This document shows, one piece after another, positions 59,073-64,000 of a DNA stretch of 64,000 nt. How positions within the stretch are numbered: position 1 is the stretch's first letter; every line of letters starts with the position of its first letter. This DNA is from Flavobacterium sp. ALJ2. GTDB taxonomy: Bacteria; Bacteroidota; Bacteroidia; Flavobacteriales; Flavobacteriaceae. The stretch is from positions 124,001 through 188,000 of the forward strand of contig NZ_JADNRC010000003.1 of assembly GCF_015594725.1 (NCBI RefSeq). Reading direction: 5' to 3'. The notes beneath the pieces are model-generated. The model was not told where the DNA came from, made no database searches, and saw only the letters and a program-made list of their open reading frames with translations. A program made the position numbers and the translations under genes.

Positions 59073-59102
59073 ACAACTCATCCTCGAAATTCTACAATTG
59101 GG
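59073..59102 (+). promoter_or_regulatory. LytTR-type operator upstream of the TonB receptor gene
   Basis: Half-sites acaactcat (59073-59081) and acaattggg (59094-59102) are 21 bases apart, matching at 7 and 8 of 9 positions the published LytTR pattern [TA][AC][CA]GTTN[AG][TG]. There are 33 bases to the TATATTTG box. Confidence 0.55.
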
Positions 59103-59135
59103 TCACTTACTATTTAAATGTTAAAATTAACAAAA

Positions 59136-59143
59136 TATATTTG
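59136..59143 (+). promoter_or_regulatory. -7 box (TATATTTG) of the TonB receptor gene
   Basis: TATATTTG, 20 bases before the start codon. No TTG at -33, consistent with need for an activator bound just upstream. Confidence 0.65.
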
Positions 59144-59163
59144 TCTCATCAAAATCAAAAAAC

Positions 59164-61371
59164 ATGAAAACCAAGTTTCTAGAATTAGAAAAAAACAGAA
59201 TAGGATTAAAGACCAAATCAGTTTTTACAATCTTATTTTTATTAATAAGTTTCGCTATTTTTTCTCAAAACACACTTTCTGGAAAAGTAGTTGACACAAA
59301 AGGAAAACCAATTACTGGGGCAAACATATATATTGATGGCACTTACGATGGAGCTACAAGTGCCGAAAACGGAGAATTCTCGTTTACAACTGAAACTTCT
59401 GGGAATCAAATATTAATAGTAAGTTTTTTAATTTATGAAACTTCAACCATACCGATAGATCCTGCCAATTTTAAAAATCAAACTATAAAGCTAAAAGAAA
59501 GCGTAAATTCATTAGATGCAGTTATTATTACTGCCGGAACTATGGAATCTGGCGATAAAGCTAGGGTTTCTGTTTTAAAACCTTTGGATATTGTTACCAC
59601 TGCTGGATCCGCTGGAAATATTATTGCTGCTTTACAAACCTTACCAGGAACTCAAAATGTAGGCGAAGACGGACGTTTATTTGTTCGTGGTGGAGAAGCT
59701 AGTGAAACGCAAACATTTGTTGATGGCATTAGAGTTTCTCAGCCTTATGGAGCATCAGTACAAAATTTACCAACCCGTGGTCGTTTTTCTCCTTTCTTAT
59801 TTAGCGGGATTGCTTTTTCAACAGGAGGTTATTCGGCAGAATATGGTGAGGCTTTATCTAGTGTATTATTATTGAATACTCAGGATGAACCTGATCAAAA
59901 CAAAACGGACATCGCCATGATGACTGTAGGATTAGGAATTGGAAATACTCAGAAATGGAAAAAAAGTTCTTTGAGTGTAAACGTAAGTTACATAAATCTA
60001 GCTCCTTATCAAGCTGCTGTAAAACAAGACGTCGATTGGAATCGACCGTATCAATCTTTATCTGGTGAGAGTGTATATCGCTATCATTTTAAAAATGGAA
60101 TTTTTAAATTATATACTGCTTTTGATACTGCTAAGATTGACCTTAATCAGAAAAACATAAATTTTGAAAACCCAATTCGAATAAATTTAGTGAATAACAA
60201 TTTTTACTTAAACACAGTTTATAATGGAACATTTGGCAGTAACTGGCAAATTACTTCGGGATTGAGTTATGGCTATAGCAACAATAAAAAAGATATTGAT
60301 GTAGCAAATATAAATGATGATGAAAATGCAGCTCATCTTAAATTAAAATTAAAGAAGAGTCTTTCGAACAGAGTGAAACTATCATTTGGTGCCGATTATT
60401 TTATTACTAAATACAATGAAGATTTTCAGGATAATGTAATACCTACAATTACTAATGGCTACGACTCAAATATTGCTGCTATTTATACCGAAACTGAAAT
60501 CTCGTTCTCTAGTAAACTAGCTGCAAAAGTTGGTCTTAGAGCATCTAATAACAGTTTACTTGATGAAACAGCATTAGCTCCAAGAATTTCGTTGGGATAT
60601 AAAATTGCGAAAAACAGCCAGTTTTCACTTGCTTATGGTGACTTTACACAAACTCCCGTTGTAGATTACATCAAATACTCTAAATACCATCAGTTTGAAA
60701 GCGAAAAAGCAGCTCACTATATTTTAAACTTTCAGTACAATAAAACTGGGCGTACTTTTAGAGCCGAAGCATATTACAAGGATTACAGCAATCTGGTAAA
60801 ATACAACACACAAACCATTCAATACAACTCTGTTTTTAGTAATGATGGTACTGGTTATGCTAAAGGATTGGATATCTTTTGGAGAGATAGCAAATTATAT
60901 AAAAATCTAGAATATTGGATATCCTACTCTTACATTGACACTAAAAGAGATTATAAAAATTTTCCAACAAGTGTAACTCCAGATTTTGTTGCTGACCAAA
61001 ACTTGTCTATTGTAACCAAATATTTTATTACAGATTGGAAATCTCAAATCGGGCTAACAAATAGTTTCAGCACAGGAAGACCTTACAACAATCCAAATGA
61101 AACAAAATTCATGAACGGAAAAACAAAATCATATAATAGTTTGAGTCTTAGCTGGGCTTATTTATTAACTACTCAAAAGATTTTATACTTCTCTGTTTCT
61201 AATGTTATAGGTACTCAAAATGTATTTGGTTATAATTATGCCAAATCTCCCGATGCAACTGGAGTTTATAACAGACAAGCCGTTACGCCTACTGCTGATC
61301 GTTTTTTCTTTATTGGCTTCTTTTGGACTATTAGCCAAAATAAAAATGAGAATCAGTTGAAGAATCTATAG
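59164..61371 (+). CDS. TonB-dependent receptor
   Basis: A 735-residue receptor. An unusual polar N-terminal extension (about 1-20) precedes the signal segment (VFTILFLLISFAIFSQN). A carboxypeptidase-regulatory-like domain covers about 38-120 (LSGKVVDTKGKPITGANIYI). The plug is about 125-235 (RLFVRGGEASETQTFVDGIR) and the barrel runs to the C-terminal FWTISQNKN. No STN domain. Ligand unknown. A LytTR-type direct repeat and TATATTTG lie upstream, matching those of the TPR/kinase operon that follows, so both are probably activated together. Confidence 0.93.
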   Translation: MKTKFLELEKNRIGLKTKSVFTILFLLISFAIFSQNTLSGKVVDTKGKPITGANIYIDGTYDGATSAENGEFSFTTETSGNQILIVSFLIYETSTIPIDPANFKNQTIKLKESVNSLDAVIITAGTMESGDKARVSVLKPLDIVTTAGSAGNIIAALQTLPGTQNVGEDGRLFVRGGEASETQTFVDGIRVSQPYGASVQNLPTRGRFSPFLFSGIAFSTGGYSAEYGEALSSVLLLNTQDEPDQNKTDIAMMTVGLGIGNTQKWKKSSLSVNVSYINLAPYQAAVKQDVDWNRPYQSLSGESVYRYHFKNGIFKLYTAFDTAKIDLNQKNINFENPIRINLVNNNFYLNTVYNGTFGSNWQITSGLSYGYSNNKKDIDVANINDDENAAHLKLKLKKSLSNRVKLSFGADYFITKYNEDFQDNVIPTITNGYDSNIAAIYTETEISFSSKLAAKVGLRASNNSLLDETALAPRISLGYKIAKNSQFSLAYGDFTQTPVVDYIKYSKYHQFESEKAAHYILNFQYNKTGRTFRAEAYYKDYSNLVKYNTQTIQYNSVFSNDGTGYAKGLDIFWRDSKLYKNLEYWISYSYIDTKRDYKNFPTSVTPDFVADQNLSIVTKYFITDWKSQIGLTNSFSTGRPYNNPNETKFMNGKTKSYNSLSLSWAYLLTTQKILYFSVSNVIGTQNVFGYNYAKSPDATGVYNRQAVTPTADRFFFIGFFWTISQNKNENQLKNL

Positions 61372-61511
61372 AAGGAAAGCTTCGAATATTTTCCTAACAT
61401 TGTGCTGAGAAGTCACAAATATTTCACCAATATTGTGAGGAAAAGAAACAAAGGCTTTATTCAGATTATCAAAAAACTTTGAATCTTAAAAAACCTTTGA
61501 ACCTTCCTTAA

Positions 61512-61541
61512 ACAACTCATCCCTAAAATTCAACAACTCAG
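61512..61541 (+). promoter_or_regulatory. LytTR-type operator upstream of the TPR/kinase operon
   Basis: Half-sites acaactcat (61512-61520) and acaactcag (61533-61541) have the same 12-base spacer and the same 33-base distance to a TAnnTTTG box as at 59073. Confidence 0.55.
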
Positions 61542-61574
61542 TACTATTAAATTTTAAGAGAATAAAATCTACAA

Positions 61575-61582
61575 TACTTTTG
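61575..61582 (+). promoter_or_regulatory. -7 box (TACTTTTG) of the TPR/kinase operon
   Basis: TACTTTTG gives a leader of about 55 bases before the TPR gene at 61644; no -33 TTG. Confidence 0.6.
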
Positions 61583-61643: not shown

Positions 61644-62264
61644 ATGACAAAATTAATTACAGTTATCACATTATTTATTTGCAGTCTTTTATCTGCTCAA
61701 ACCCAATTTGAACAAGGAATGGGTAAAGCATTCTCTCTTTGGAAAGAAGGAAAAAATACTGAAGCATCTGATTTATTCGAAAGAATTGCTGCTGCCGAGA
61801 AAACAAACTGGCTGCCCAATTATTATGTTGCATTAGTAAATACAACATCCGCATTTAAAACTCAAGACAAAACACAAATAGACTTATTACTTACTAAAGC
61901 ACAAAATGCATTGAATGTTGAAATGATAAAAGATCAAAACAATGCCGAGCTTTATGTATTACAAGCTTTGATTTATACTGCTTGGGTTGTAGCTGACCCT
62001 ATGACTAACGGGATGAAATATTCAACGAAGACTATAGAAATGTACAATAAAGCCGAAGTATTGGCTCCTGAAAACCCTAGAGTTGTTTTTGGTAAAGCCG
62101 ATTTTCAATTAGGTGGTGCAAAATGGACAGGAGTTGACACCAAACCTTTATGTGCACAAGTTGACAAAGCTATTGGTCTTTTTGCTACTTTTAAACCTGA
62201 AACTCCTTTTTCTCCAAAATGGGGTTTAGAAAGAGCACTTGAAGTTCAAAAAACATGTAAATAA
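61644..62264 (+). CDS. Exported TPR-like protein
   Basis: A 206-residue protein with a signal peptide (MTKLITVITLFICSLLSAQ). A helical repeat region follows (FEQGMGKAFSLWKEGKNTEA, then ASDLFERIAAAEKTNWLPNY and LYVLQALIYTAWVVADPM), typical of tetratricopeptide-like periplasmic proteins. It starts the operon that continues 30 bases later with the histidine kinase. It may help the receptor or sense its cargo; unproven. Confidence 0.82.
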   Translation: MTKLITVITLFICSLLSAQTQFEQGMGKAFSLWKEGKNTEASDLFERIAAAEKTNWLPNYYVALVNTTSAFKTQDKTQIDLLLTKAQNALNVEMIKDQNNAELYVLQALIYTAWVVADPMTNGMKYSTKTIEMYNKAEVLAPENPRVVFGKADFQLGGAKWTGVDTKPLCAQVDKAIGLFATFKPETPFSPKWGLERALEVQKTCK

Positions 62265-62294: not shown

Positions 62295-63626
62295 ATGCAT
62301 TTGAAACCGCATATAATTAAAGCTTTATTCATTGGAACAGTAATTTTCTTAGTATCCTTTTTAATCAAATTTATTTCGTTTGGAACTGAGGTTTTTACTC
62401 CATATTTATTTATTGCCTTTCTATATTGTATGTTGTATAGCACAACGCTATACATCGTTAACTCATCATTATTTGCTTTTTTAGATAAAGTTTTTAAAGC
62501 CAATCCTTATTCATTAAAGCGTATAATTATAGGTTTTATCAGTTCTTTTTTTTTCTCATTATTAGCCATATTTGTACTCCGAATTTTTTTAAAAGTTATT
62601 ATCGACAAACATTCAATAGTCGAATTTTTAGCTAATGAAGACTCTGAGAATTATATAGAATCTTCTGTAATTACTTTTATTGTATTAGTAGTTTTTCATG
62701 CCTTACACTTTTATAAAGTATATAATGAGAACCGTGTTAAGGAACAAAAAATTATTGCAGGAACTGCTTCCGCAAAATTTGAAACTTTAAAAAACCAGAT
62801 TGACCCACATTTTCTTTTTAATAGTTTAAATGTATTAAGTTCTTTAATAGAGGAAAATCCAGATAATGCTCAACGATTTACGACTTCATTATCAAAAATT
62901 TATCGTTACGTTTTAGAGCAAAAAGATAAGGAACTTGTATCGGTAGAAGATGAATTGGCATTTGCAAAAACGTATATGAATTTATTAAAAATGCGTTTCG
63001 AAAATAGTTTATTCTACGAATTACCAACCGAAGACATTCATCCAGATGCCAAAGTAGTTCCATTATCATTACAACTTTTACTAGAAAACACAGTAAAACA
63101 TAATGTGGTAAGTGAACAAAAACCATTACATATTCGAATATTTATCGAAAAGGATTATTTAGTCATTCAAAATGATTTTCAGAAAAAAGAAGTTTTACAA
63201 GATCGCCAGGGGGTAGGATTGCAAAACATAGTAAATCGTTACGGCATTATTACCAACCGAAAAGTCTTGATTGAGCAAAATAAGGAAACATTTACTGTAA
63301 AAATACCTATTTTAACAAAACAAGTTAGTGTCATGGAAACAAATGATTACAATGAAAACAATGCTTATTATAGAGCAAAAAAAAGAGTTGAAGAACTTAA
63401 AGGTTTTTATGGGAATTTAATTTCTTATTGTTGTGTAATACCGTTTTTAGTTTTTATCAACTTAAAATTCTCACCTGGTTTCCAATGGTTTTGGTTCTCA
63501 GCGCTAGGATGGGGATTTGGATTAGCAATGCATGCTTTTAAAGTCTTTGGATATAGCTCAAATTGGGAGGAAAGAAAAATTCAAGAAATTCTAAGAAAAG
63601 AAGAGAGAAAACAAAACTGGAGATAA
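62295..63626 (+). CDS. LytS/YehU-type histidine kinase with C-terminal 2TM domain
   Basis: A 443-residue sensor. Four membrane helices lie in about 8-145. The His_kinase domain has QIDPHFLFNSLN (phospho-acceptor H172), N-box LLLENTVKHN (261-270) and G-box GVGLQNI (306-312). After the catalytic domain a 2TM module (about 365-443) begins AKKRVEELKGFYGNLISY and ends NWEERKIQEIL. The location after the ATPase is unusual. Such kinases pair with LytTR response regulators, which fits the operators upstream. A stand-alone 2TM gene follows two bases later. Confidence 0.92.
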   Translation: MHLKPHIIKALFIGTVIFLVSFLIKFISFGTEVFTPYLFIAFLYCMLYSTTLYIVNSSLFAFLDKVFKANPYSLKRIIIGFISSFFFSLLAIFVLRIFLKVIIDKHSIVEFLANEDSENYIESSVITFIVLVVFHALHFYKVYNENRVKEQKIIAGTASAKFETLKNQIDPHFLFNSLNVLSSLIEENPDNAQRFTTSLSKIYRYVLEQKDKELVSVEDELAFAKTYMNLLKMRFENSLFYELPTEDIHPDAKVVPLSLQLLLENTVKHNVVSEQKPLHIRIFIEKDYLVIQNDFQKKEVLQDRQGVGLQNIVNRYGIITNRKVLIEQNKETFTVKIPILTKQVSVMETNDYNENNAYYRAKKRVEELKGFYGNLISYCCVIPFLVFINLKFSPGFQWFWFSALGWGFGLAMHAFKVFGYSSNWEERKIQEILRKEERKQNWR

Positions 63627-63628
63627 CT

Positions 63629-64000
63629 ATGGAAACCTATCGAAATAAACTTGATAAAAGTGAATTACGGGAACTGGCACATAAAAAAGTAAAAAAAATT
63701 AAAGGATTTTATGTCCATTTATTCTTTTACGCTCTCGGTCTTATAATTTACCTATTGAAAGTATATATCGGAATACGATTTGATTTTTTCCCTTTAAAAT
63801 ACTTCAATAGTTTTGTAATGACAATATGGACAATAGTTTTTCTATCATTGACAGTAGATTTATTTCTTACTTATAGAATATTTGGAAGAAATTGGGAAGA
63901 ACAAAAACTGAATACTATTCTAGAAAAAAAACAGTCTATAAAAAACACAAAGACAGTAGATACATATCATAATAAATACGATGACTGTTATCTTGAAGCT
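63629..64000 (+). CDS. 2TM-domain protein, cut by the window end
   Basis: 124 codons are visible without a stop. A 2TM module (about 15-95) begins AHKKVKKIKGFYVHLFFYAL and has RIFGRNWEEQKLN at its end, similar to the tail of the kinase encoded upstream. A polar stretch follows (NTKTVDTYHNKYDDCYLEA). The start is two bases after the kinase stop, so it is co-translated. What follows 64000 is unknown; a LytTR response regulator is expected nearby. Confidence 0.85.
   Translation, partial: METYRNKLDKSELRELAHKKVKKIKGFYVHLFFYALGLIIYLLKVYIGIRFDFFPLKYFNSFVMTIWTIVFLSLTVDLFLTYRIFGRNWEEQKLNTILEKKQSIKNTKTVDTYHNKYDDCYLEA

Follow-up and report, generated by a model that had tools for sequence, protein, structure and literature searches.

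TonB receptors and LytTR regulators are numerous in flavobacteria. The window analysed here (64,000 nucleotides, C3:124001-188000 of the 4.36-Mb genome of Flavobacterium sp. ALJ2) contains two direct repeats of identical spacing, one ahead of a TonB-dependent receptor gene and one ahead of an operon with a sensor kinase. The question that this locus raises is which protein acts on the two repeats, and what it does to the genes behind them.

Repeats and promoters in the window

Operator 1 (ACAACTCAT-N12-ACAATTGGG; 59073..59102, + strand), read directly in the sequence, lies ahead of the receptor gene and consists of the arms acaactcat (59073-59081) and acaattggg (59094-59102), with 12 bases between them and a period of 21; it reached 37.4 bits with the profile described below. 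Operator 2 (ACAACTCAT-N12-ACAACTCAG; 61512..61541, + strand), read in the same way, lies ahead of the TPR-kinase-regulator operon, and its arms acaactcat (61512-61520) and acaactcag (61533-61541) have the same N12 spacer and the same period of 21. At both operators exactly 33 bases separate the end of the repeat from a sequence that fits TAnnTTTG, namely the -7 box of the receptor promoter (TATATTTG; 59136..59143, + strand) and that of the operon promoter (TACTTTTG; 61575..61582, + strand); transcription would start at around 59148 and around 61587, respectively. Inspection of the sequence found no TTG at the -33 spacing in either of the two window promoters. The identical spacing, the 33-base distance and the missing -33 TTG, all claimed in the initial annotation, were thus borne out, and its coordinates were exact on re-reading.

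The LytTR arm consensus is [TA][AC][CA]GTTN[AG][TG]. This consensus, which the initial annotation had quoted, is fully matched by the right-arm consensus of the family, ACAGTTCGG, but the arms of the window itself fit it at only 7-8 of 9 positions, none of them exactly, and are among the weaker matches.

Genes behind the two promoters

The receptor gene (59164..61371, + strand) encodes a TonB-dependent receptor of 735 aa with CarbopepD_reg_2, Plug and barrel domains (Pfam), and its orthologs adjoin the operon in other genera; NCBIfam and Pfam models gave no indication of its substrate. The first gene of the operon (61644..62264, + strand) encodes a secreted-looking protein of 206 aa, which had been described as a TPR protein. 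This description holds in part: there is a weak TPR-like stretch, seen only as a weak match to the LcrH/SycD TPR-type model (E 2e-4), but no Pfam match at E<=0.001.

The LytS-type sensor histidine kinase predicted at 62295 (443 aa; 62295..63626, + strand) was confirmed by Pfam matches to His_kinase (PF06580, E 6e-26) and to a C-terminal 2TM domain (PF13239). Its H-box DPHFLFNSLN and N-box LLLENxVKHN are kept in 50 orthologs, and its N-terminal half is hydrophobic by eye, on which basis the protein has the features of the LytS/YehU type. A tandem 2TM protein (Pfam 2TM) follows on the + strand, at 63629..64000 in the window and reaching 64264 (L044), and past the window edge, in the numbering of the window, come another 2TM gene (64283-64642; Pfam 2TM) and a gene for a LytTR response regulator of 255 aa (64740-65507). 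The regulator that the initial annotation expected beyond 64000 is therefore present, at the end of the operon.

The regulator combines Response_reg (E 2.7e-14) and LytTR (E 5.1e-20) domains according to Pfam, and its phospho-acceptor Asp53 is invariant in the aligned orthologs. A sequence search of solved structures matched only the receiver half, and fold comparison then matched the LytTR half: the modelled C-terminal domain fits the solved LytTR domain 3d6w with Z 17.6 and 1.4 A over 108 residues; the model is that of an ortholog with 91% identity, with a mean pLDDT of 77 and values of 75-91 in most domain blocks. The nearest NCBIfam models are BtsR and LytR, and the regulator scores far below both equivalog cut-offs (107.9 vs 246 and 107.1 vs 375); it works like BtsR/LytR but is not a member of either equivalog. 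A Pfam LytTR search found 11 LytTR domains encoded in the genome, that of this regulator and ten others.

Conservation across Flavobacteriaceae

Of 100 genera sampled in the family, 58 have an ortholog of the TPR-like gene, and 56 loci from different Flavobacteriaceae genera were read for conservation of the site. Upstream of the TPR gene, a leave-one-out profile detected a site within 600 bp in 50 of the 56 loci and within 700 bp in 54; the best non-site score was 11.1, and most true sites scored above 25. The profile did not include the TTTG, which nevertheless stood at exactly offset 67 in 49 of the 50 sites found first, and at the same offset in 52/54 operon-side and 23/25 receptor-side sites. 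When the arm spacing was left free (10-40 allowed), 53 of the 56 loci chose period 21, and the gap to the -7 box was 33 bases in 51 of these 53. All the sites in the family loci were on the same strand as their genes. The repeats are thus conserved at orthologous loci, as predicted, in 54 of 56 genera, and both their internal spacing and their distance to the -7 box are fixed.

The arms, at 1.36 bit per base, and the -7 box, at 1.57, were rich in information, against 0.05 in the upstream flank; moderate information was carried by a tract of A between the arms and by a run of T ahead of the promoter. The family consensus is ACAaTTCATC-N4-AAAAAT-n-ACAgTTCGGTAA. The right arm agreed with the LytTR consensus at 8.5/9 positions on average and exactly in 31/54 operon-side sites, and the left arm at 7.9/9 on average and exactly in 7/54. 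A -33 TTG was seen in 5/54 operon-side and 3/25 receptor-side sites. The features of a LytTR direct-repeat operator found here are 9-bp arms, a 12-bp spacer (within the range 10-13), the consensus at family level, and a position close to a promoter without a good -35/-33 element.

Occurrence of the site and of the regulator

The loose core ACAAnT-N15-ACAAnT had 52 matches in the genome and its reversed control 37, a difference that is not significant. The full pattern (both half-sites plus N37-TTTG) had exactly two matches, operators 1 and 2, and none at one mismatch; the next best matches have 2 mismatches, and matches with 3 mismatches occur at control level (37 vs 29). The proposed genome scan for the full architecture thus returned the two window sites as its sole exact matches.

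Among 150 Flavobacterium genomes the full pattern was present in 103, and the reversed-pattern control in none (0/150). The regulator, called present at E<=1e-80, was found in 118 of these 150 genomes, and the exact site in 101 of the 118 regulator-positive genomes compared with 2 of the 32 others (Fisher p 3e-17). Reading 12 of the regulator-positive, pattern-negative genomes revealed a variant site in 10 of them, and in the other two a contig cut at or in the locus; both regulator-negative genomes with a site have broken contigs, which end before the TPR gene in one (G143) and inside the regulator gene in the other (G203). In one genome (G217; L239, L244) the regulator gene is unlinked and the site remains with the TPR-kinase operon. 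Because site and regulator are linked, their co-occurrence is partly a matter of descent; much of the association is the descent of one locus, and it shows specificity rather than independent gains. Among 395 genomes of the phylum, the full pattern was confined almost wholly to the same family and the reversed control was absent. Outside the family we found two matches in a single genome (G569) from another family of the same order, one lying immediately ahead of an ortholog of the TPR gene, and one match each in two genomes elsewhere in the phylum sample. The sites, with their fixed architecture, belong to one conserved genetic unit together with the kinase and the regulator.

Additional sites and cluster genes

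A site also precedes the receptor gene in 25 of the 56 family loci, and in nearly all the named Flavobacterium loci that contain the start of the receptor gene. In 16 of the 56 loci a third site follows the kinase gene, ahead of the 2TM genes. The large Flavobacterium genomes have, in addition, an unlinked gene with a perfect site (L230-L235), encoding a membrane protein of 219 aa that is DUF2306-like by eye and has no Pfam match. Several genera have added cluster genes for DUF2141 and DUF2306 proteins (Pfam, one example each), with the DUF2306 protein inside the cluster in L095, L116 and L121, which makes the unlinked DUF2306-like target independently plausible. In the genome of the window only a remnant of this target gene is left (51% over 58 aa, interrupted by many stops; L393, C5:161981 and 162047), and upstream of it lies a fossil site, AAAACTCATC...ACAATTCGG (C5:161981), of 31 bits and with the -7 box lost. 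The two-target receptor regulon that had been proposed is therefore supported in that both sites are conserved, but incomplete, since the third site at the 2TM genes and the unlinked target exist elsewhere.

Other neighbours were assigned by eye. In several genera, amidohydrolase-like genes occur within the operon (L112, L119, L120 and L126) and TonB-like energy-transducer genes lie between the receptor and the TPR gene (L087, L089, L092, L097 and L109); both are possible clues to the substrate. A DUF4331-like exported protein was repeatedly found 1-2 kb past the regulator gene (L099, L110, L124, L125, L130 and L131). Unlinked sites in single genomes were seen before a 351-aa protein without Pfam match (L236, ~1000) and before an alpha/beta hydrolase (L237, ~980).

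A second LytTR system

A second LytS/LytTR pair of the genome (C20; L053, 5701-5769) has CGTTTCACC twice at period 21, at the same distance to TAnnTTTG as in operators 1 and 2. On one side of these repeats is the LytS/LytTR operon and on the other a divergent gene encoding a 386-aa protein, VWA-like by eye; the site is conserved in 11 Flavobacterium genomes, always beside that kinase (L364-L366, L368-L370, L372-L374, L376 and L377). That a different arm occurs within the same geometry points to a general rule for the group, of which this system would be the first independent instance. As a tentative proposal, which we rate somewhat below an even chance, LytTR promoters of Flavobacteriaceae might share one geometry (21 bp, 33 bases, ~-60) in which the arm alone sets the specificity of each paralog. 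If this rule were true, sequence would be enough to read off the regulon of each LytTR system in the phylum.

Proposed mechanism and alternative explanations

Both repeats are very probably operators of the LytTR regulator whose gene closes the kinase operon; the regulator would activate the receptor gene and the operon. The LytTR regulon proposed in the initial annotation is supported by the presence of the regulator in the operon and by the conserved repeats, while binding and activation are predicted. A study on F. psychrophilum places the sigma-A box at -12 to -5 (PMC9723704). Counted from there, the repeats are centred at about -60, as they are for AgrA (PMC4227749). Activation is deduced from this site position together with the missing -33 element, because the repeats sit where an activator would sit on promoters that lack it. 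The arm consensus, the centre at about -60, the H- and N-boxes, Asp53 and the modelled LytTR domain together point to a phosphorylated, activating dimer. The LytS/2TM kinase would sense a signal, perhaps by way of the exported TPR-like protein and the additional 2TM proteins, and would phosphorylate Asp53 of the regulator. A pair of LytTR domains, centred at about -60, would then occupy two successive major grooves on the same face of the DNA and recruit sigma-A RNA polymerase to promoters without a -33 element. The bound regulator would thereby switch on the gene for the TonB-dependent receptor and also, in a positive feedback loop, its own TPR-kinase-2TM-regulator operon; the operon-side site fits the proposed autoregulation.

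The same sites could be read differently. The regulator might bind and repress, its occupancy at -75 to -46 holding the promoters off until a signal arrives, and there is a precedent in CoxC, a LytTR protein that represses (PMC11347149). CoxC, however, overlaps the -35 box, whereas the repeats here end about 33 bases before the -7 box, in the position of the AgrA activator, and only the few promoters counted above (5/54 operon-side, 3/25 receptor-side) have a -33 TTG; we consider repression unlikely. A rather smaller probability still is left to the sites being real operators of another LytTR protein, or of a direct-repeat binder of some other family with a spacing of two helical turns. In principle, the genome's ten other LytTR proteins are candidate binders, and several DNA-binding families use direct repeats, but the arm sequence and the 12-bp spacer are those of LytTR sites, and the site occurs only in genomes that carry the regulator, save for the two assemblies whose contigs end in the locus. 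The clearly different arm, CGTTTCACC, at the divergent promoter of the second system likewise argues against such an exchange, since it indicates that LytTR paralogs differ in specificity.

It is hardly credible, finally, that AT-rich sequence produced the repeats by accident, or that they are part of a core promoter used by an alternative sigma factor. The loose ACAAnT repeat is indeed about as common as its reversed control, but the full pattern is absent from the reversed controls of 150 genomes and the downstream box is an ordinary sigma-A -7 element; conservation at orthologous positions over dozens of genera refutes this explanation. Activation by the LytTR regulator of the operon is thus the reading that we retain, and the conserved sites support an outer-membrane receptor regulon across Flavobacteriaceae in which binding is predicted from sequence.

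Comparison with known systems

The open-access literature yielded no description of a LytTR operator or of a 2TM-domain kinase in Flavobacterium or Bacteroidetes, nor of DUF2141 with a TonB receptor, in agreement with the earlier claim that such a site had not been described in the family. As far as this literature shows, the present site is the first operator assignable to a flavobacterial LytTR regulator. The predicted regulon is compact and testable, comprising the receptor, the TPR-like protein, the kinase, the 2TM proteins, the regulator and a small membrane protein, and it is conserved across the family, F. psychrophilum included. Its arm sequence and fixed spacing offer a code for decoding other LytTR systems of the phylum.

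The arm of AgrA, ACAGTTAAG, presumably resembles the family arm consensus. AgrA of Staphylococcus aureus acts at agr P2/P3 on a pair of 9-bp direct repeats with a 12-bp spacer, centred at about -60 on weak promoters (PMC4227749). The system described here shares with it the LytTR response regulator, the 9-bp direct repeats, the 12-bp spacer and the centre near -60; it differs in phylum, in its flavobacterial TAnnTTTG promoter, in its output, a TonB receptor instead of a quorum system, and in its kinase, which is of the LytS type with a 2TM domain and not AgrC. The LytTR domains of CoxC and RcoM also bind direct repeats spaced by about two helical turns (PMC11347149), but these proteins use three repeats and are one-component sensors, CoxC being a repressor.

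The TAnnTTTG -7 box at -12 to -5 is shared with the TreeMM classes SM1-SM3 of F. psychrophilum (PMC9723704). That study describes sigma-factor motifs, and LytTR is not mentioned in its main text; both sites are present at the F. psychrophilum locus (L308). In lines of F. johnsoniae co-cultured with Burkholderia, mutations were found in the LytTR gene FJOH_RS09515 and in the neighbouring kinase gene RS09520 (PMC10197871). We considered whether this is the same system, and it is probably another pair, because the two locus tags are adjacent and here the 2TM genes separate kinase and regulator.

The systems YpdA/YpdB-yhjX and BtsS/BtsR-btsT of Escherichia coli are likewise LytS/LytTR pairs with direct-repeat operators, that of YpdB being two copies of GGCATTTCAT (PMC4847170), and with a small dedicated regulon. 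They control very few targets, mainly one transporter, whereas here an outer-membrane receptor is the target, the operon has an operator of its own, the arm sequence differs, and there are extra exported TPR-like, DUF2141 and 2TM partners. LytS/LytTR direct-repeat operators are thus already known as a kind, and what is new is a flavobacterial receptor regulon with such predicted operators.
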